DNA from: Bacillota bacterium
GTDB lineage: Bacteria; Bacillota; Clostridia; Peptostreptococcales; Anaerovoracaceae
Reading direction: 5' to 3'
DNA: 38,792 bases
Assembly: GCA_017557505.1 (NCBI GenBank)
Contig: JAFYYP010000039.1
Span: 1-38,792, forward strand
Shown here one piece after another: positions 1 to 37,368 of this stretch. Each line of letters opens with the position of its first letter. Within the stretch, counting starts at the first letter, position 1. Both the position numbers and the translations under genes were made by a program. A model generated the notes under the pieces. It ran no database searches and was not told the origin of the DNA. It was given only the letters and a program-made list of their open reading frames with translations.

Positions 1-1164
1 GACGCCCGCGCTGCCCAGCAGCAGGGCGAGGTTTTCGATGTCGTTCTGGTCGGCCATCATGTGGTTCGTGTAGCAGCAGTCGCAGCCCATGGGGATGCCG
101 GACAGCTTGCCCATGAAGTGGTCTTCGAGGCCTGCCCGGATGACCTGCTTGCTGTCGTACAGGTACTCGGGGCCGATGAAGCCGACGACCGTGTTCACCA
201 TGAACGGGTGGAACTGCCGCGCAAACGCGTAGCAGCGGGCTTCCATAGTCACCTGGTCCGCGCCGTAGTGGGCGTCAGAAGATAGTTCGCTGCCCTGGCC
301 CGTCTCGAAATACATGACGTTCGGCCCCTTGGCCGTGCCGCGCTCTCTGAGCAGCGCGATGGCCTCTTCCACCGTCGCCGCGGAGAAGCCGAAGGCCGTA
401 TTGCCTTTCTGTGACCCCGCGATAGACTGGAAGATCATGTCGCACGGAGCGCCCCGGCGCACAGCCTCGATCTGGGTCGTGATGTGGCCGAGCACGCAGA
501 TCTGCGTCGGGATCTCGAAGCGGTTCTTGACCTCGTCGAAGCGCTTTAAGACTTCCGCCAGGCTCGCGACCGTATCGTTGACCGGGTTGAGCCCCAGAAG
601 CGCGTCGCCGCAGCCGTACGAAAGGCCTTCGAACAGCGAAGCCGTAATGCCTTCGACGTTGTCGGTCGAATGGTTGGGCTGCAGTCTCGTCGACAGGCAG
701 CCGCGCTTGCCGATCGTCGTGTTGCACGTCGCTTCGACGCGCACCTTGTTCGCTCCGTAGATCAGGTCCAGGTTCGTCATGAGCTTGCAGACGCCCGCGA
801 CTGTCTCCGCGGTGAGCGCCTTGCCGATGGCCTTGATGCCCTCTTCGCTCATGCCGTAGTCCAGGATGTGCTCGCGGAGCTCGGCGATGGTCATGTTCTT
901 GATCCGTTCATACATCGCTTCGTCCAGACCGTCCTGATTGATGCGTGTCACCTCGTCGTCCTCGTAGGGCACGACGGGGTTTTCGCGCAGGTCCTTGACC
1001 AGCAGATTCGCCAGCACGTACTTGGCAGCCACGCGTTCGAGTGCGCTTTCCGCCGCGATGCCTGCCAGGCGGTCGCCCGATTTTTCTTCGTTGGCCTTGG
1101 CCAGCACGTCCTTGACGGATTTGAACGTGTATGTTTTTCCGGATAGCGTTGCCGATAAATTCAT
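1..1164 (-). CDS. eutB: Ethanolamine ammonia-lyase large subunit, 3' end cut by window edge
   Basis: The reading frame starts at the ATG at 1162-1164 and runs off the window after 388 codons; the family is about 450 residues, so roughly the last 60 are missing. EutB with EutC forms the adenosylcobalamin-dependent lyase that splits ethanolamine into acetaldehyde and ammonia. The translation begins MNLSATLSGKTYTFKSVKDV and carries EutB-typical stretches such as CNTTIGKRGCLSTRLQPNH, EGLSYGCGDALLGLNPVND and, near the cut, GIPMGCDCCYTNHM. It lies 22 bases after eutA, behind an AAAGGATGGAAAG ribosome site. Expression should depend on read-through of the ANTAR-type terminator upstream of eutA. The call is secure; eutC and microcompartment genes, if present, lie beyond the edge. 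Confidence 0.96.
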   Translation of the reverse strand, partial: MNLSATLSGKTYTFKSVKDVLAKANEEKSGDRLAGIAAESALERVAAKYVLANLLVKDLRENPVVPYEDDEVTRINQDGLDEAMYERIKNMTIAELREHILDYGMSEEGIKAIGKALTAETVAGVCKLMTNLDLIYGANKVRVEATCNTTIGKRGCLSTRLQPNHSTDNVEGITASLFEGLSYGCGDALLGLNPVNDTVASLAEVLKRFDEVKNRFEIPTQICVLGHITTQIEAVRRGAPCDMIFQSIAGSQKGNTAFGFSAATVEEAIALLRERGTAKGPNVMYFETGQGSELSSDAHYGADQVTMEARCYAFARQFHPFMVNTVVGFIGPEYLYDSKQVIRAGLEDHFMGKLSGIPMGCDCCYTNHMMADQNDIENLALLLGSAGV

Positions 1165-1186: not shown

Positions 1187-2626
1187 CTATCCGAACAGCA
1201 GTGTCTTGACTACGACGGGCACGACGAGGCCGTCCATAAGGGGCCTGCCGATGTCGACGTAGTCGCCTACTTCGATCTTGACGCTGTCGATCGATGCGAT
1301 CCTTCTCGCGCAGCCGGTCTGCTGCAGCGCGATGCCGAGCGCTTTCGCGATGTCGGTCTGCACGAGCACGATGATGGGCTCACCCGCCGGAAGCAGGCTG
1401 TCCATCGTCTTCGCGATGGCGGACGCCAGCTTTTTCAGCGTTCCGAAGTCCGGATCTGTGAGCCCGGGCAATGCCAGCAGCATGCGGGGCGAATCGCTCT
1501 GCTCCAGAAACCAGCGGACCTTTTCCGCCAGCAGAGGCACGTCGCCTCCAATGACCGCCCACTGCTCGTCCCTGTTTAACGTAAGGGCCGGCACGTTCTT
1601 GACCGGGAAGATCCCGTCGCTGTACAGGATCGTGCTGCCCGAAAGGTTCGTGGTATAAGTGCCGGCACCGACCACGGTCGCCCGGATGGTCTCGCCGCCC
1701 TGGATGATCTTTTGCTCCTTGAAATACCGGTTTTCGCGGATGGCGCGGCCCAGGATGGGACCGATATCGCCGTAACGCAGGTCGTCTTCGCCGCTTTCGG
1801 TGTAGATGCAGTCCGCGACGCCGCCGGAAAAGCACACGCGCCGCGCAGGCCTTGCGGGGCTGTACGTGTCGCTGCCGGGGGTGAGGATCCTGTCCTGCAG
1901 CGCAGACTTCGGGCCGATGCCGATCGCGCCTGCCAGGCAGTCCGCGAACACGTCGCAGATCCTGCGCAGGTCGCTGCGGGAAATGCGCTGACCCGTTTCC
2001 GTCCGTACGCCTGCCAGTTTGGCGGCCTCCGCCGCCGCATAGCTGATATAGGCGATCTGCGGGTCACCGTAAGAGGATGCTTCCAGCTTGATCAGGCGCC
2101 CGCCCACGTCGAGACAGATCTTGCCCTGCGTGTCGCCGGCGTTGAAAAACACGATGTTCGACGTGCCGCCGCCGATGTCCAGATTGACGACGGTGCAGTC
2201 GTTGTCGATCGAGTATTGCCAGGCGCCGCTGCCCTTCCCCGCGATGATGGACTCGAGGTCCGGTCCCGCGGTGGAAACGACGAATTCGCCGGCAAAATCG
2301 CTCAGAGCCTGCAGCACGCTTGCGGCGTTCTCCTTGCGGGCCGATTCGCCCGTGATGATGACCGCGCCGGTCTGCGTATCTTTAGGCGTGTAGCCCGCTG
2401 CCGCAAATTCCTTCGCGACGATGTCCCGCACAGCGTCCGCGTCGATCAGCGTCTGCGTCTTGAGCGGGGTGAAATACACCTGGCTCTTGTACAGGATCTC
2501 CTTGCCCGTGATCGCGATGCGCGGCGCGGTAAAGTAGCCGGCCGTATTGTCCATCTCGATGCGGCTGAACACGACCTGGGTCGTCGAGGTCCCGATATCG
2601 ATTCCTACGCTTAAGATCTGTGCCAT
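1187..2626 (-). CDS. eutA: Ethanolamine ammonia-lyase reactivating factor EutA
   Basis: A 479-residue protein of the usual EutA length. EutA is an actin/Hsp70-like ATPase that replaces damaged cobalamin in EutBC with fresh cofactor. Visible features are the N-terminal phosphate-binding strand GIDIGTSTTQ (residues about 8-17), an internal GESARKENA segment, and LDIGGGTSNIVFF, a second ATPase phosphate motif. The start at 2626 is chosen because the conserved domain begins with MAQILSVGIDIGT. An in-frame ATG at 2716 would add 30 low-complexity residues read from a GC-rich leader repeat. A GAGGTG ribosome site lies about 12 bases before the chosen ATG, which is rather far. eutB follows 22 bases downstream. 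Confidence 0.95.
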   Translation of the reverse strand: MAQILSVGIDIGTSTTQVVFSRIEMDNTAGYFTAPRIAITGKEILYKSQVYFTPLKTQTLIDADAVRDIVAKEFAAAGYTPKDTQTGAVIITGESARKENAASVLQALSDFAGEFVVSTAGPDLESIIAGKGSGAWQYSIDNDCTVVNLDIGGGTSNIVFFNAGDTQGKICLDVGGRLIKLEASSYGDPQIAYISYAAAEAAKLAGVRTETGQRISRSDLRRICDVFADCLAGAIGIGPKSALQDRILTPGSDTYSPARPARRVCFSGGVADCIYTESGEDDLRYGDIGPILGRAIRENRYFKEQKIIQGGETIRATVVGAGTYTTNLSGSTILYSDGIFPVKNVPALTLNRDEQWAVIGGDVPLLAEKVRWFLEQSDSPRMLLALPGLTDPDFGTLKKLASAIAKTMDSLLPAGEPIIVLVQTDIAKALGIALQQTGCARRIASIDSVKIEVGDYVDIGRPLMDGLVVPVVVKTLLFG

Positions 2627-2639
2627 ACTTCGTGTTTTC

Positions 2640-2735
2640 ACCTCGGGGTCCTGTCGCAGGGCACCCTTCCGCATCCCCTCGCTAACGCTCAGGGCGCGTC
2701 CCTTCCCTCGCGCCACCCCTTCGGCGAAACTTGAT
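2640..2735 (-). repeat. GC-rich self-complementary stretch in the eutA leader
   Basis: The DNA between the ANTAR terminator and eutA changes abruptly from AT-rich to very GC-rich. On the minus strand GGCGCG and CGCGCC arms flank a 10-base purine stretch, followed by GAGCGTTAGCGAGGGG and by further short complementary blocks around GGGTGCCC. If translated it reads as low-complexity sequence with no domain. It looks like a dispersed intergenic repeat inserted in the leader, but only one copy is recognised in this window. Just upstream, 2741-2759 is a separate small inverted repeat (ATTACAA/TTGTAAT). Confidence 0.4.
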
Positions 2736-2761
2736 CTTATGATTACAAATAGCTTGTAATC

Positions 2762-2819
2762 GATAAAATAAAAAAAACAACAAAACCTGACGGTCCGCTG
2801 ACCGTCCAGACTTTGTTGT
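2762..2819 (-). terminator. Intrinsic terminator between eutW and eutA
   Basis: On the minus strand, after eutW, an outer 8-bp arm pair (ACAACAAA with TTTGTTGT) encloses a perfect 7-bp inner stem (GACGGTC/GACCGTC) with an AGCG loop, and is followed by a run of eight T. This is a strong Rho-independent terminator that should block transcription into eutA-eutB unless relieved. Its 5' arm contains the 3' half of hairpin P2 of the ANTAR element, so the two structures exclude each other. Confidence 0.9.
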
Positions 2820-2847
2820 CCGATTCGCCTTACGCTGTTGTAAAGCG
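2806..2847 (-). promoter_or_regulatory. ANTAR-protein target: tandem hexaloop hairpins P1 and P2
   Basis: Two adjacent minus-strand hairpins with six-base loops precede and overlap the eutA terminator. P1 (2826-2847) has an 8-bp stem, CGCTTTAC with GTAAGGCG (one T-G wobble), and loop AACAGC. P2 (2806-2823) has a 6-bp stem, TCGGAC with GTCTGG (two wobbles), and loop AACAAA. Two bases separate them. Both loops begin AACA. Known ANTAR targets of EutV-type proteins have this two-hexaloop layout, with P2 overlapping the terminator. Their published loop signature, as I recall it, is A at position 1 and G at position 4; here position 4 is A in both. EutV encoded just upstream is the obvious ligand. 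The function is inferred. Confidence 0.8.
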
Positions 2848-2853
2848 GTCCTG

Positions 2854-3930
2854 TTATGCGTGCTTAAAATCGAAGGAGACTTTTGTTCCCTCGGACGAAG
2901 ACGCGATGTGCAGCTTACCCTTCAGCTTGTCCTGAACGGTGGCCCTCACGATGGAAAGCCCCAGGCTGCCCTCCCGCGCTGCTGCGGGATCGAAGCCGCA
3001 TCCGTCGTCACTGACTATTATAGTATCGATCAGGGTTCCTTGGCAAACAGAAATTGCAACGGTCCCCGTACTTTTTTCCGTAAAAGCGTGGCGCAGCGCG
3101 TTCGAGACGAGCTCCGTGATGACCAGCGCGACCGCCGTCGCGGTATCTGCGTCCAGTTCCAGGTCGTCTCCGCCGGTCTCGATCGCGATGGATTTGCCGG
3201 CCGGCATCAGCGCGGTCAGATTGCCGCGCAGCCGCTCCAGCAGCACGTCCGTGTGTACCGAACGCATGTCGCCCGCGTCGTAGGTCAGGATATCGTGGAT
3301 GGACGCGATGGACTGCACACGGCTGACGTTTTCTTTCAGGATGCCTTTGATCGCGGCGCTGTCTGCCTGCCGCGCCTGCAGGTTCAGGATGCTCGCCACG
3401 AGCTGCAGGTTGTTTTTGATCCGGTGGTGGATCTCGCGCATTGCGGCGCTTTCGTGCTCCGTTTCTTTGCGCAGCGACGGCTCTCCCTGAGAAAAGGCAT
3501 TCGCCAGCTGTTCGTATTTTTCTGTACGGATGAGTTCTTCTCTGATGTCCTTTTCCCGGATGAGCGCTCCGATGACCCGGCCGTCGTCTGCCTTTACCGG
3601 GCACACGTTCTGGCGCACGGGACGGCCTTCCTGCGTTTCCGCCTTGATGTCGCAAATGGGCACGCCTTCAGCGAACGCCTTGAACACCGCGGGTTCCTTT
3701 TCCGCGGTGGCGATCTCGCCGGTCACGTCATGTTCGTAGGCCGTCGTGCCGCTGGCTGGGCGGACATGGGCGGCGACCAGCGCCTTGTCCTCCGTAAGCG
3801 GACAGTCCAGGAAGATATCGCTGTTGCACAGATCCGCGATCGTCTGCATCTGCGACGCAGCCTGCAGCAGGGTCTGCACGTCGTTTTCATTCAGTTCCGG
3901 CATGGCGCGGAGCAGCGATTCGAGGCTCAT
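2854..3930 (-). CDS. eutW: Sensor histidine kinase EutW (HisKA_2 type)
   Basis: A 358-residue soluble sensor kinase. The N-terminal half (about 1-140) is a PAS/GAF-like sensing region with no membrane segment. The phospho-acceptor motif REIHHRIKNNLQL and ASILNLQA (about 165-185) are typical of the HisKA_2 class that pairs with ANTAR regulators. The ATPase domain has ELVSNALRHAF (N box), SDDGCGFDP (G1) and GSLGLSIV (G2). In enterococci and clostridia EutW senses ethanolamine and phosphorylates EutV. Its ATG overlaps the end of eutV by four bases, so the pair is translationally coupled. The eut assignment rests on context and kinase class; the sensed ligand cannot be read from sequence. Confidence 0.9.
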   Translation of the reverse strand: MSLESLLRAMPELNENDVQTLLQAASQMQTIADLCNSDIFLDCPLTEDKALVAAHVRPASGTTAYEHDVTGEIATAEKEPAVFKAFAEGVPICDIKAETQEGRPVRQNVCPVKADDGRVIGALIREKDIREELIRTEKYEQLANAFSQGEPSLRKETEHESAAMREIHHRIKNNLQLVASILNLQARQADSAAIKGILKENVSRVQSIASIHDILTYDAGDMRSVHTDVLLERLRGNLTALMPAGKSIAIETGGDDLELDADTATAVALVITELVSNALRHAFTEKSTGTVAISVCQGTLIDTIIVSDDGCGFDPAAAREGSLGLSIVRATVQDKLKGKLHIASSSEGTKVSFDFKHA

Positions 3931-4508
3931 GACGGGTCCTCCTGTTCCAGATACGCCTTCGCGATGACCGCAAGCGGCAGTCTCTTATCCATAGCAGTCC
4001 TGCGCAGGATCTGATAGGCTTCGCCCTCGCCTACGCCCTCCTTTGCCGCATAGAGAGACTGTGCCCGCGCGATCAGCTTGGAATCTTCGAGCTTCTGCTT
4101 CGCGTTTTCCGTTTCTGCGCGGCTTTCGCGAAGCCGTCTGCTCTGCGCCATGGCAACTTCGATCGCAGGCCTTAGCAGCCTCTGTTCCACAGGCTTGACG
4201 AGATAGCCGCTCACGCCGATCTCACCCGCTTTTCTCACGATCTCTTCGTCGCTGAACGCGGTCAGCAGGATGACGCTGCCGGCCAGGTCTTCCTTCAGGA
4301 TGGTCTGCGTCGCGGACAATCCGTCGAACACAGGCATTTTAACGTCCATCAGCACGACGTCCGGTCTTTTATTGCGGCAGTTCGCGACCGCGTCAAAACC
4401 ATCGCCCGCTTCGAAAGCGACTTCGTATCCCAGGTCCTCGAGCATCCCGGCGATATCCATTCTGGTGATCGGTTCGTCGTCGACGACCGCCACGGTGATC
4501 CGGCTCAT
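3927..4508 (-). CDS. eutV: ANTAR-domain response regulator EutV (antiterminator)
   Basis: A 193-residue response regulator. The receiver domain (about 1-120) shows the acidic pocket VVDDE, the phospho-acceptor aspartate in VLMDVKM, the switch threonine in ILLTAF and the lysine in YLVKP. The C-terminal ~60 residues (KLIARAQSLYAAKEGVGEGE then AYQILRRTAM and AKAYLE) form a three-helix RNA-binding ANTAR domain. Phosphorylated EutV dimers bind paired hexaloop hairpins and prevent terminator formation; such an element lies directly downstream at 2806-2847. The ATG overlaps the stop of the metallophosphoesterase gene (ATGA), showing coupling. Confidence 0.93.
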   Translation of the reverse strand: MSRITVAVVDDEPITRMDIAGMLEDLGYEVAFEAGDGFDAVANCRNKRPDVVLMDVKMPVFDGLSATQTILKEDLAGSVILLTAFSDEEIVRKAGEIGVSGYLVKPVEQRLLRPAIEVAMAQSRRLRESRAETENAKQKLEDSKLIARAQSLYAAKEGVGEGEAYQILRRTAMDKRLPLAVIAKAYLEQEDPS

Positions 4509-6913: not shown

Positions 6914-8239
6914 TCACCCCTCGCAAAGACAGGCGCCGTATTTCAGGCGCAGCCTGGTCTTTCTGTCGGAACGCTCGTACAGCGTCTTTTCGGTCTCTTC
7001 CATCAGTTCGCGCACGAACTCGCGCTTGTCCCCGTCCATCGCGTGATCGCTGTAGGCGGCCTCTTCCCAGATGCGGGCAGCTTCGGCATAGCGCTCGCCG
7101 TATTCGTCCGAGAGCATCGCAGCAGCGTCTTCCGTACACCGGGCGAACGGACGGTTCTCCGTCTTCATGCCGCAGGCCTGCAGCCAATCGACCGTGTGCC
7201 GGAACATCGCGCGGATGGCGGCCGCGTTGTCTTCGTCCGCAAAGGCGGCGCGCTTTTCTCTGGAACGTTTGCGTGCGCGGCTCACGAACAGGAAAGGCGC
7301 GAACGGAACGGTCAGGATCGCGACGACCGCAAGGAGCAGCAGTATGATCTTCAGCCAGTCGATGCGGTGCGGCCGGGAGATCTCCTGTTCAGCCTGCGTC
7401 TGATGCTCGAACTCGCGCTGATCCTGGGCGGCAGACGTGTCGATATTCGCTTCTTCTTCAGAGAGGCGCGATTCCTCATGGGTCTCGTTGACCCCCGCCG
7501 CCTGCGGCGGCTCCCACTTCGTGATCTGCATCATGGCCCGCCCCAGCTCGTCGCGCAGATGCTCGGAATAGTCTTCTACCGCTGCAGCCGGACGGGGTGC
7601 GATGACCAGCACGACGGCTGCGATCACGGCAAAGGCAAAGACCGGTACGGCGCCTGTGCGGAGTTCCGCTTTGGGGCCGGCGACCAGATACGCAAGGCAG
7701 GCGAACACGAACAGGTTGCGCCAGACGCCCGGCGTGACGCCGAAATATGCTTCAAACAGGACAAGCAGGAAGAACAGAACGACCGGAACGGCGCGGCTGC
7801 GTCCGGCGAGCGCGCAGACAGCGCCGAACAAAACCGCGGCGCACAGCAGCGCCAGACGCACGGCAGCGGTTTCTCCGGATGCCTGTTCGAAATACTCGTA
7901 AGCGTACGCGTTGCTCGCTTCGCTGAAGGCAAACAGCCGGTTGGCGAGTTCCATCGCGCCGGCGCGGACAGCAGGCAGCGCGACGAGCACCAGGCCGGCA
8001 CATAACGCAAAAACAACTGCCAGACCTGTGCCGGTCTTCTCCGGCAAGACTGTGCAGACGGCCAGCAGCGCCAGGCCGCAGAAAAACGCAGCTACGTCGA
8101 ACGTAAATCCGAACGTCCTGCTGGCAGCAAGCGCGAGCGCCGCGTAAAGCAGCGCAGCAGGAAGCAGCGCTGTCATAAGGGTCAGCGCTTTCGGCTTCGT
8201 TTCGACCGTATTGAGTTGCAAGGCTTCTGCGGTTTTCAT
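6914..8239 (-). CDS. TgpA-like membrane protein with DUF4129-type C terminus, no transglutaminase core
   Basis: A 441-residue membrane protein. About seven hydrophobic helices fill residues 20-220, followed by an extracytoplasmic Glu-rich region (about 225-300), one membrane helix (about 305-330) and a basic helical C-terminal domain. The last contains WLQACGMKTENRPFARCTEDAA, resembling the DUF4129 tail of TgpA proteins. In MoxR operons the gene after DUF58 usually encodes a TgpA membrane transglutaminase with a Cys-His-Asp core; no such core is seen. Gaps to its neighbours are 9 and 4 bases. The family assignment rests on topology and operon order. Confidence 0.65.
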   Translation of the reverse strand: MKTAEALQLNTVETKPKALTLMTALLPAALLYAALALAASRTFGFTFDVAAFFCGLALLAVCTVLPEKTGTGLAVVFALCAGLVLVALPAVRAGAMELANRLFAFSEASNAYAYEYFEQASGETAAVRLALLCAAVLFGAVCALAGRSRAVPVVLFFLLVLFEAYFGVTPGVWRNLFVFACLAYLVAGPKAELRTGAVPVFAFAVIAAVVLVIAPRPAAAVEDYSEHLRDELGRAMMQITKWEPPQAAGVNETHEESRLSEEEANIDTSAAQDQREFEHQTQAEQEISRPHRIDWLKIILLLLAVVAILTVPFAPFLFVSRARKRSREKRAAFADEDNAAAIRAMFRHTVDWLQACGMKTENRPFARCTEDAAAMLSDEYGERYAEAARIWEEAAYSDHAMDGDKREFVRELMEETEKTLYERSDRKTRLRLKYGACLCEG

Positions 8240-9322: not shown

Positions 9323-10261
9323 TCAGCTGAGACTATCGGGAATTTCAACGGTCTTCAGAAGATCGTCGAGCACCTGCTGCGCCGTCGCGCCGGAAAGCCT
9401 CGCCTTCTGCGTCAGGATGAGACGGTGCGCACAGACGTCGTAGAGCACGGCCTGCACATCTCCGGGCACGACGTAGTCGCGGCCTTCGAGATAGGCGTGA
9501 GCCTTGGCCATGCGGTCGCAGAACAGCACGCCGCGCGGGCTGATGCCGATCTCGGTCAGCGGATGTTCGCGGGACGCCATGGAAAGCCGCGTCAGATAAG
9601 ACAGGATGCTCTCCTTCGACGTGACGCTGCGAGCTTCTTTCTGCATGCGCACGACGTCCGCGCGGGTCACGGACTGCTGCACGAGCTCGAGCGGGTCTTT
9701 TGTCTGGCGGGCCTTCAGCAGTTCCATCTGCGCGTCGAAATCGGGGTAGCCGATGGACAGGCGAACGAGGAAGCGGTCCATCTGCGCGTACGGCAGCGAC
9801 TGCGTTCCGGCCGTTCCGACGTTGTTCTGCGTCGCGATGACGATGAACGGCTCCTGCAGCGGATACGTATTGCCGTCCACGGTCACCTGACGTTCTTCCA
9901 TCGCCTCCAGCAGCGCGGACTGCGTCTTGCTGGACGTGCGGTTGATCTCGTCGCCGAGCAGCAGGTTCGTATCGTTCACCACGCCGGGCTTGTACGTAAA
10001 GGAACCGGTGTTCTTATCGTAGACGGAGAACCCGATGATGTCGCTGGGCAGCACGTCCGGCGTGAACTGCACGCGGTTGTACGTCAGGCCCAGCGTGCGG
10101 CTGAGCGCCAGCGCCAGGGTAGTCTTTCCGACGCCGGGCACGTCGTCCAGCAGGATGTGGCCGTCCGACAGGATCGCCATCAGGATCTTTTCGATCACGG
10201 CGCGCTTGCCGGAGATCGCCTTTTCCACTTCACAGATGATTTGTTCGAGTTCTCTGTTCAT
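9323..10261 (-). CDS. MoxR family AAA+ ATPase
   Basis: A 312-residue AAA+ ATPase with Walker A GVPGVGKTTLA (about 40-50), Walker B LLLGDEINR (about 99-107) followed by ALLEAMEERQVTV, sensor 1 IATQNN and an arginine-finger region MDRFLVR. The C-terminal lid contains SPRGVLFCDRMAKAHAYLEG, typical of MoxR. MoxR ATPases act as chaperones that load metals or assemble complexes, often with DUF58 and VWA partners, as here. It is the first gene of the minus-strand series leading down to eutB and has a recognisable sigma-A promoter. AAAAGG precedes the ATG. Confidence 0.93.
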   Translation of the reverse strand: MNRELEQIICEVEKAISGKRAVIEKILMAILSDGHILLDDVPGVGKTTLALALSRTLGLTYNRVQFTPDVLPSDIIGFSVYDKNTGSFTYKPGVVNDTNLLLGDEINRTSSKTQSALLEAMEERQVTVDGNTYPLQEPFIVIATQNNVGTAGTQSLPYAQMDRFLVRLSIGYPDFDAQMELLKARQTKDPLELVQQSVTRADVVRMQKEARSVTSKESILSYLTRLSMASREHPLTEIGISPRGVLFCDRMAKAHAYLEGRDYVVPGDVQAVLYDVCAHRLILTQKARLSGATAQQVLDDLLKTVEIPDSLS

Positions 10262-13838: not shown

Positions 13839-15205
13839 TCGTCTATCCTTTCTATGCTGTAGCTGCACATATTCTGTTCTTTGGCTTCGCGCTCTTCGAA
13901 GAATTTCTCGGCGACCGCAGGGAACGCGATGTAGCTGAGCACGTCTTCTTCGCAGTGGGCTTTGCTGCCCAGATAGGCTTCCGCCTTCGCGAACGCTTCT
14001 TCGTCAAGCGGGGTCACGACGGGTTCTTCTCCGTTCAGGACCTTCGCGCGTACTTCGGGATCGATGGGCGCGGGGGTCTTGCCGTATTCGCCGCGGCAGT
14101 ACGCCTTGATCTCCTTGGAGACCGTCTTGTAGCGTTCGCCGTTGATGACGTTCAGCACGGCCTGGGATCCGACGAGCTGCGACGTCGGCGTGACGAGAGG
14201 CGGATACCCCATGTCTTTACGCACGAGCGGCGTCTCCTTCAGCGCTTCCTGGAACTTGTCTTCCTGGCCGAGGCCCTTCAGCTGCGACAGCAGATTGGAG
14301 ATCATGCCGCCGGGCATCTGATAAGTCAGGCACTGCGTGTCTGTCGTGAGGGAGATCGGATTGAGGATGCCCTCTTCGAGGAAGTCCGCGCGCACCTTCT
14401 TGAAGTAGTCCGCGATCTCGAGCAGGATCTGTCCGTCGAGGCCTGCGTCCATGCCCATTTCCTTCAGGGCATAGTACAGCGTTTCGGTGGCGGGCTGCGA
14501 CGTGCCGCCGGACAGCGGCGAGATGGCGGTATCCAGCACGTCCGCGCCGGCTTCGGCGGCCTTCAGGCAGGACAGGAAAGCCATGCCCGCGGTGCAGTGC
14601 GTATGGATGATGACCGGCAGGTCCAGCGCGTCTTTCAGCGCGGCTGTCAGTTCGTAGGCGTTCTCCGGGGTCATGATGCCGGCCATGTCCTTGATGCAGA
14701 TCGACTTTGCGCCCATCGCTGCCATTTCCTTGGCGAGCTTGACGTACGCTTCGCGCGTGTGCACAGGGCTGGTCGTATAGGAGATGGCGCCTGATGCGTG
14801 AGCTCCGCATTCCACGGTCTCTTCGATGGCGACCCGCAGGTTGTCGACGTCGTTCAGGGCATCGAAGATACGGATGATGTCGATGCCGTTGCGCACAGCT
14901 GCGCGCACGAAGCGGCGCACGACGTCGTTGGGATAATGCGCATAACCCAAGATGTTCTGGCCTCTCAGCAGCATCTGCAGTTTCGTGTTCGGCATAGCCT
15001 TGCGGATCTTGCGGAGTCTCTCCCAGGGATCTTCGCCGAGGTAGCGCAGGCAGACGTCGAACGTCGCGCCGCCCCACATCTCAGCGGAGTAATAGCCGGC
15101 CTGGTCGATCTTGGGCAGGATCGCCTCGAATTTGCTGTAAGGCATCCTGGTCGCTACGAGCGACTGCTGGGCGTCCCGCAGGACGGTTTCTGTGAATCGG
15201 ATCAT
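13835..15205 (-). CDS. oadA: Carboxyltransferase subunit of oxaloacetate decarboxylase (OadA/PycB type)
   Basis: A 456-residue carboxyltransferase with the TIM-barrel motif set of OadA and pyruvate carboxylase: TVLRDAQQSLVATR at the N terminus, LRGQNILGY, IRIFDALND, the metal-site lysine region CIKDMAGI and HTHCTAGM. The C-terminal region (PGGMISNLLSQLKGLG to VNGERYKTVSKE) is the PycB conserved domain. No biotinyl domain is attached; the carrier is encoded two genes downstream. It transfers CO2 from oxaloacetate to biotin, the first step of Na+-pumping decarboxylation. It lies 17 bases after birA and overlaps oadG by four bases. Confidence 0.95.
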   Translation of the reverse strand: MIRFTETVLRDAQQSLVATRMPYSKFEAILPKIDQAGYYSAEMWGGATFDVCLRYLGEDPWERLRKIRKAMPNTKLQMLLRGQNILGYAHYPNDVVRRFVRAAVRNGIDIIRIFDALNDVDNLRVAIEETVECGAHASGAISYTTSPVHTREAYVKLAKEMAAMGAKSICIKDMAGIMTPENAYELTAALKDALDLPVIIHTHCTAGMAFLSCLKAAEAGADVLDTAISPLSGGTSQPATETLYYALKEMGMDAGLDGQILLEIADYFKKVRADFLEEGILNPISLTTDTQCLTYQMPGGMISNLLSQLKGLGQEDKFQEALKETPLVRKDMGYPPLVTPTSQLVGSQAVLNVINGERYKTVSKEIKAYCRGEYGKTPAPIDPEVRAKVLNGEEPVVTPLDEEAFAKAEAYLGSKAHCEEDVLSYIAFPAVAEKFFEEREAKEQNMCSYSIERIDE

Positions 15206-37217: not shown

Positions 37218-37240
37218 GATTAAGATAATTGATCTTTAAG

Positions 37241-37350
37241 AACGATCCCGTGAGGTCGGCAAGATCGAGTCATACGAGGTCGCAGACATGCGTTTTCCGC
37301 GGTCTGCCGTTATTCTGTATGTCCGCCCTGCCGTTCTCCGGCAGGGTTTT
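37241..37350 (+). promoter_or_regulatory. PyrR-type transcription attenuator before pyrC
   Basis: GATCCCGTGAGGTC (37244-37257) matches the PyrR RNA consensus ARUCCNGNGAGGYU at 12 of 14 positions and sits in a hairpin closed by CGATC/GATCG. An intermediate stem GCAGAC (37282-37287)/GTCTGC (37302-37307) is followed by an 8-bp terminator CCCTGCCG/CGGCAGGG (37326-37346) with TTTT. CTGCCG occurs twice (37304 and 37328), so the terminator's 3' arm has a competing partner. UMP-bound PyrR would favour termination. Confidence 0.85.
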
Positions 37351-37368
37351 CTGCATTCAGGAGCGATC

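Follow-up and report, generated by a model that had tools for sequence, protein, structure and literature searches.

A predicted EutV/EutW antitermination switch before eutA-eutB in an Anaerovoracaceae genome, with a probable clade-specific A at the fourth hexaloop base

The window, i.e. the whole stretch of 38,792 nucleotides analysed (contig JAFYYP010000039.1 of assembly GCA_017557505.1), carries the genes eutV, eutW, eutA and eutB (Table 1). The genes around the switch are on the minus strand, and the leader RNA is therefore the reverse complement of the window. The predicted EutV contains a receiver and an ANTAR domain, lies in a eut neighbourhood together with a partner kinase, and was the sole ANTAR protein detected in this genome, which is about 87% complete. 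Through the Pfam domains, we confirmed the placing of eutV and eutW just upstream of the switch that a preliminary description had proposed. The switch is located on the same strand in the eutW-eutA intergenic stretch of 227 nt, with 6 bases from the eutW stop codon to the first hairpin (P1). The sequence of P1 is CGCUUUAC[AACAGC]GUAAGGCG and that of the second hairpin (P2) is CGGAC[AACAAA]GUCUG, loops in brackets. Elsewhere in the window, at 37229-37356 (+), a match resembling a PyrR binding site scored 43.7 bits (gathering score 54; E=0.0066); it may be a pyr attenuator leader that has diverged.

Table 1. Genes and leader RNA features at the eut locus of the window.
Feature	Position	Strand	Description	Evidence
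eutV	3927..4508	-	REC+ANTAR response regulator	Pfam Response_reg + ANTAR; gap-free alignment to PDB 6wsh/6ww6 sequence
eutW	2854..3930	-	Sensor histidine kinase	Pfam GAF_PdtaS + HisKA_2; 4-base overlap with eutV
eutA	1187..2626	-	Ethanolamine ammonia-lyase reactivating factor; first gene after the switch	Pfam EutA E=1.4e-164; NCBIfam EutA models
eutB	1..1164	-	Truncated by contig start (window base 1 = contig base 1)	Pfam EutB E=3.2e-182
P1 hairpin	2826..2847	-	8 bp, hexaloop AACAGC at 2839-2834, closing pairs AC/GU	
P2 hairpin	2807..2822	-	5 bp, hexaloop AACAAA at 2817-2812, closing pairs AC/GU; overlaps terminator 5' arm	
Intrinsic terminator hairpin	2776..2820	-	5' arm passes through P2	Fold -24.1 kcal/mol
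Terminator U tract, 8 U	2770..2777	-		Sequence

The P1-P2 stretch folded alone gave precisely these two hairpins at -16.2 kcal/mol, and one of 200 shuffles was as stable. The P2-terminator stretch folded alone gave the long terminator hairpin, and none of 200 shuffles reached its stability. P2 and the terminator have positions 2820-2807 in common and are therefore mutually exclusive; P1 is outside the terminator. The preliminary description of two adjacent hexaloop hairpins, the second sharing bases with the 5' arm of the terminator, was thus borne out in all its elements, on the minus strand. It had also reported A at position 4 of both loops where the published consensus has G, and this reading held: A1 and the AC/GU closing pairs are retained and position 4 is A in both. 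A shifted register restoring G as loop base 4 was ruled out, as the P2 loop AACAAA contains no G. An alternative fold of the full leader (2860-2755, minus strand) was also observed, in which the terminator 3' arm pairs with bases 5' of P1 and both P1 and P2 still form; it could be a built-in antiterminator. Between the terminator and eutA (2640-2762, minus strand) there is an additional hairpin (GAUUACAA..UUGUAAUC) and a G+C-rich stretch. The 15-mer GAGCGTTAGCGAGGG from this region was detected in four of 363 loci, every one a copy of the window's own locus.

The arrangement was compared with chance by a scan, blind to base 4, that required two A1 hexaloops closed by C-G pairs and, after them, a terminator overlapping P2. 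It gave one site in the window against six in 300 shuffled windows (0.02 per shuffled window), and on the 227-nt intergenic stretch a site appeared in 3 of 20,000 shuffles. The Rfam search of the leader gave no match at the gathering or the relaxed threshold.

The Enterococcus faecalis eut leaders, nasF and amiE carry hexaloops with A1 and G4 (Ramesh 2012, PMC3369931), so the G that the preliminary description gave for position 4 was correct. According to the same report, mutation of A1 or G4 reduces induction and binding, closing-pair changes disrupt induction, and the eutA leader is among the four E. faecalis sites analysed (eutP, eutG, eutS and eutA). For NasR, SELEX gave a preference for A1, G4 and a C:G closing pair (PMC7496416). 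The window resembles the E. faecalis EutV/EutW leaders in its two hexaloop hairpins with A1 and closing AC/GU pairs, in P2 lying within the terminator arm, in the site before eutA and in the REC-ANTAR regulator and kinase encoded alongside. Differences from E. faecalis are the A at position 4 of both loops, the Ser/Gln of EutV in place of Arg142/Lys149, the single exact-pattern site found per genome, and the linker of 2-3 nt between P1 and P2; the E. faecalis linkers measure 5-12 nt, and 3 nt impaired eutP (Ramesh 2012, PMC3369931). NasR/nasF and AmiR/amiE also present a dual-hairpin ANTAR target overlapping a terminator, but with other regulator types. The actinobacterial ANTAR RNAs (BMC Microbiol 2021, PMC8164766) likewise have dual stem-loops with hexaloops; they are computational predictions in which one loop departure is accepted and A1 and G4 are conserved in more than 50%, and no clade-wide G-to-A change is described in the parts of that survey consulted. 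Our literature search, which covered parts of these papers, turned up neither a clade-wide A4 loop nor the pocket change described below; the supplementary alignments of Ramesh 2012 may hold A4 cases. The leader fails a strict ANTAR definition requiring G4, yet by analogy with the known systems it appears to work like a member.

The pattern ACAACANNGT, present twice within a short distance, occurred once each in five of eight genomes of the genus with A4 in both loops; the three genomes lacking it are 79-89% complete, and the reversed control pattern was found in none of the eight. Six leaders were then compared: that of the window, those of four genus members and that of locus L134. Their loops were identical except P1 base 5 in one genus member (G152, AACAAC), and the P2 loop was invariant. 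Five of the eight pairs of the P1 stem and three of the 19 pairs of the terminator stem changed on both sides; the P2 stem had no two-sided change, and one of its pairs was broken in two of the six leaders. The closing C-G was invariant, and the adjacent A-U was G-C in P1 of L134. The covariance check suggested in the preliminary description thus turned out in favour of the switch, and the claim that the layout fits the EutV mechanism is backed by the neighbouring genes, the architecture, the closing pairs and the covariation.

These data also bear on the possibility that the region is a plain intergenic terminator or a decayed site, at which EutV does not bind the hairpins and eutA expression depends on leaky termination. 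Such a site could well have loops without the base shown to be necessary in E. faecalis and a linker shorter than any there. However, the loops are kept but for one base over the six leaders while the stems change compensatorily, the loop-to-loop distance of 22 nt falls inside the 18-28 nt seen across 80 sites with G4 in both loops, and the window EutV retains the receiver positions conserved among the compared EutVs. We regard a plain terminator as very improbable, and ANTAR antitermination in general as highly probable for the window leader.

In the EutV-RNA structure, G4 is the only base-specific contact and stacks on Tyr164; in P2 it is hydrogen-bonded by Arg142, Lys149 and Glu160 (Walshe 2022, PMC8934654). 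The reported losses of affinity are 60-fold for E160A, 55-fold for Y164A and 8-fold for R142A (PMC8934654). In NasR, R340 and K347 are reported to be required for full binding (R340K and K347R are about 10-fold weaker), and R340 is described as near-universally conserved. The NasR 340/345/347 spacing matches EutV 142/147/149, which suggests that the positions are equivalent.

In a gap-free alignment to 6wsh, the window EutV has Ser143 and Gln150 at the positions of E. faecalis Arg142 and Lys149. It keeps the 6WW6 RNA contacts Glu160, Tyr164, Arg168, Met172 and Arg175 (E. faecalis numbering, also used below). Other contacts changed were Lys147 to Arg, Asn173 to Asp and Arg177 to Pro, which are uninformative because they are found in G4 EutVs too. 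We compared 181 columns between 17 EutVs of the clade with A at loop base 4 (the A4 clade, here including the loci L136, L141 and L312 and three loci with G4 in P1 and A4 in P2) and 54 EutVs of loci with G4 in both loops. When the columns were ranked by how far the consensus residue of the G4 set was lost, 142 came first of the 181 (R in 54/54 of the G4 set and 0/17 of the A4 clade) and 149 fourth, after 124 and 60. Columns 60, 70, 124, 146 and 153 also mark the A4 clade, and by Jensen-Shannon divergence column 142 ties for the top with 70 and 153, neither a reported contact. L247 and L248, recognised later, stand outside the G4 set; including them, R142 is found in 54/56. When the E. faecalis EutV was added to the G4 set, 22 columns had a conservation of 98% or more, and of these, 142 and 149 differed most in the A4 clade. 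Retention there was 0/17 for R142, 2/17 for K149, 7/17 for S171, 15/17 for both E160 and A163 and 16/17 for R15, and the other 16 columns were unchanged. Fourteen of the 17 have Gln at residue 149, and residue 142 is S, A, N, E or T in the clade, with Lys in L356/L357. That the two conserved columns with most change are both crystal-structure contacts of G4 is our strongest argument, because the ranking used no structural input.

Tandem ANTAR domains behind one receiver were observed in the EutV-like proteins of L139 (=L283), L140, L233 and L235, and a second analysis showed them in three of these four; a single chain of such a regulator might bind both hexaloops. The second ANTAR proteins of several genomes (L276-L282), used as controls, have His at the Tyr164 position in 7/7, and near them one GG candidate hairpin site was found, in L277, and otherwise none.

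The survey of loop base 4 covered genomes of the window's family (148), order (393) and class (391), of the family of genome G745 (22) and of the family (400) and order (375) of genome G812, with 80 named loci in addition; these samples overlap. The scan blind to base 4 was applied to 186 fetched loci (2.92 Mb; L132, L133 and L197 were dropped) and gave 99 sites, written below as base 4 of P1 followed by that of P2. The loci with Arg142/Lys149, including L042, had 84 sites, composed of 80 GG, two CA, one GA and one TG. The non-GG sites of these loci are in L204, L207, L238 and L241, and the one in L238 overlaps a GG pair. Among the 161 loci with only R/K proteins, a GG site was present in 53, other sites alone in three and no site in 105, to which the actinobacterial loci belong; L042 encodes one R/K and one Q/K protein and has a GG site. 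There were 23 loci with other residues at 142/149, and 14 of them had a site (11 AA and three GA); the blind scan found none in the remaining nine (L043, L131, L135, L136, L141, L193, L247, L248 and L312). The 99th site is AA and stands beside a broken eutV (L142). In this locus, of Fournierella massiliensis (3113-4300), the frames of both eutV and eutW look broken despite the A4/A4 leader. Eight loci added later gave one site in the same scan, CG, in L360 (R142/K149). In L234, a weak candidate with P1 loop AAGACU on a broken stem, P2 loop AACGGA and no U tract lies upstream of eutV and was left uncounted.

The three GA sites of loci with other residues (L137, L138 and L310) form one branch, with P1 loop AGCGGC, P2 loop AAAAAG and S142/Q149. 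Further sites of the clade, missed by the blind scan, came from visual inspection or from looser scans. L141 (AAGAGG/AAAAAG) and L312 (AGCAUC/AACAGA) have A4 in both loops; P1 of L136 is AACAGC, also A4, and its P2 is not a clean hexaloop. L357 has A4 loops AACAGG/AACAAG before a eutV-like gene and AACAGG/GACAGG after a kinase gene, and L356 has A4 with P1 only on the contig. Taking the listed A4-clade sites together, base 4 of P1 is A in 16/19 and G in 3/19, base 4 of P2 is A in 18/18 (P2 of L136 left out), and neither C nor U was found at position 4 among these listed sites (19 P1, 18 P2). The association of residue and base has a Fisher p of 1.8e-14, a value that ignores the single evolutionary origin. 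At the sequence level, the architecture, its conservation and the joint difference of base and residues are established.

Exceptions were present on both sides of this association. L247 (T142/K149) and L248 (I142/K149) are sisters outside the clade, with pairs of G4-loop hairpins and a linker of about 47 nt, at 14607-14730 (+) directly before eutA in L247 and at about 8021-7930 (-) in L248; they are possibly a long-linker variant. With G4 loops beside proteins that lack Arg142, these two loci show that losing this residue is not enough for A4, and 'Arg142 loss implies A4' was rejected as a general rule. A4 loops with Lys149 kept were found in L141, L233, L356 and L357, and A4 alongside Lys149 in L141, L233 and L357 means that Gln149 is not required. 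L235 (genome G697) encodes an R142/K149 protein inside the A4 clade; its target was not found in G697, where four pattern matches were obtained and none passed the scan.

We weighed whether the EutV of this clade no longer reads base 4 closely, so that A4 is drift, Tyr164 stacks any purine, and recognition goes through A1, the closing C-G, the loop size and Met172. This would agree with the variable residue 142, with G4 in P1 of L137, L138 and L310 despite S142/Q149, and with the A4 loops beside Lys149 in L141, L233 and L357. Drift would not be expected to spare position 4 from C and U at every listed clade site, P2 being A throughout, nor to leave residue 149 as Gln in 14/17 instead of mixed. 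We consider a relaxed code rather unlikely, but the most serious competitor of the clade-specific A4 code.

Another explanation places the cause in the RNA alone: the A-rich P2 loop pairs with the terminator U tract, and the pocket changes are a mere marker of the clade. The P2 loop does lie inside the terminator arm, other columns (60, 70, 124, 146 and 153) mark the clade as well, and L247 and L248 adjoin G4 hairpins without Arg142. But the terminator cannot account for A4 in P1, because P1 is outside it and is also A4 at most sites; the terminator constrains P2 equally at the 80 GG sites, which nevertheless have G there, and the two most changed of the highly conserved columns are among those reported to touch base 4. 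We judge this explanation improbable, and the A4 of P2 may serve terminator pairing in part. The suggestion of the preliminary description that the EutV of this lineage may read a different code therefore gained from the kept loops and from the two most changed conserved columns being reported G4 contacts; it is still an inference, with one origin and the exceptions above. We think it likely that the clade's EutV recognises A4 as a new preference, i.e. that the window has an EutVW switch before eutA-eutB with a clade-specific A4 code.

A4 leaders were also found outside eut operons. In genome G745, a tandem-ANTAR protein with S142/K149 is encoded divergently from an operon of DHDPS, FAD-oxidoreductase and TRAP-transporter genes (L233 2178-7533, minus strand), which is preceded by an A4/A4 leader, and the contig has two such leaders about 8 kb apart (AAUAGG/AAUAGG and AAUAGG/AAUAAG). 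The other ANTAR response regulator found in G745 is R142/K149 and precedes a G4/G4 leader (AUCGUU/AAAGCA) before EutA, which passed only the scan with the looser U-tract rule. In L357, two A4 leaders (7690-7790 and 9670-9760, plus strand) are around a eutVW-like pair (Lys142, Lys149); the one after the kinase gene is followed by a gene for a glycyl-radical enzyme (PFL-like + Gly_radical) and has a P2 loop beginning with G. The gene neighbourhood suggests which protein would bind which leader.

In the 58-row tree, a single branch (bootstrap/SH-aLRT 100/100) separated the A4 rows from the others. The loop change thus happened once, and the sites do not count as independent evidence. The outer branches of the clade (L233/L235, L356/L357 and L141) carry Lys149, and the inner group of 16 rows (88/80) carries Gln or Val, so Lys149Gln probably arose after the loop change. 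EutV of the window's genus lies among Oscillospiraceae-like EutVs, with 57-66% identity (73% for L134), and has at most 48% identity with other EutVs of its own order, which suggests from sequence that the regulator was acquired by horizontal transfer.

By analogy with E. faecalis, we infer that signalling, binding and antitermination in the window would proceed as follows. With no signal, the nascent RNA would fold the terminator, and transcription would stop short of eutA. When ethanolamine is present, EutW would phosphorylate EutV, and dimeric EutV would capture P1 and then P2 via the hexaloops; capture of P2 would occupy the terminator 5' arm, and the polymerase would read on. In the A4 clade, which comprises the window's genus and Oscillospiraceae-like relatives, EutV has changed along with the loop: Arg142 has been replaced, in most cases together with Lys149 to Gln, and Tyr164, Met172 and mostly Glu160 are retained. 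The window EutV probably stacks the adenine on Tyr164, with Gln149 reading the adenine edge.

Taken at its widest, the finding would be a natural clade-wide change from G4 to A4 in the specificity of ANTAR proteins for RNA. A base reported to be obligatory and two strongly conserved, binding-critical residues would have changed together to give a code orthogonal to the standard one that extends beyond eut, with both codes maybe in one genome; we give this wider reading a slightly better than even chance. Target models that fix G4 would score these leaders poorly, because G4 is the only base-specific contact and is reported to be needed for antitermination. If the change of code is true, the clade would offer a natural experiment in RNA-protein recognition and a possible orthogonal RNA switch for synthetic use, and it would call for a wider search for ANTAR regulons in gut Clostridia.
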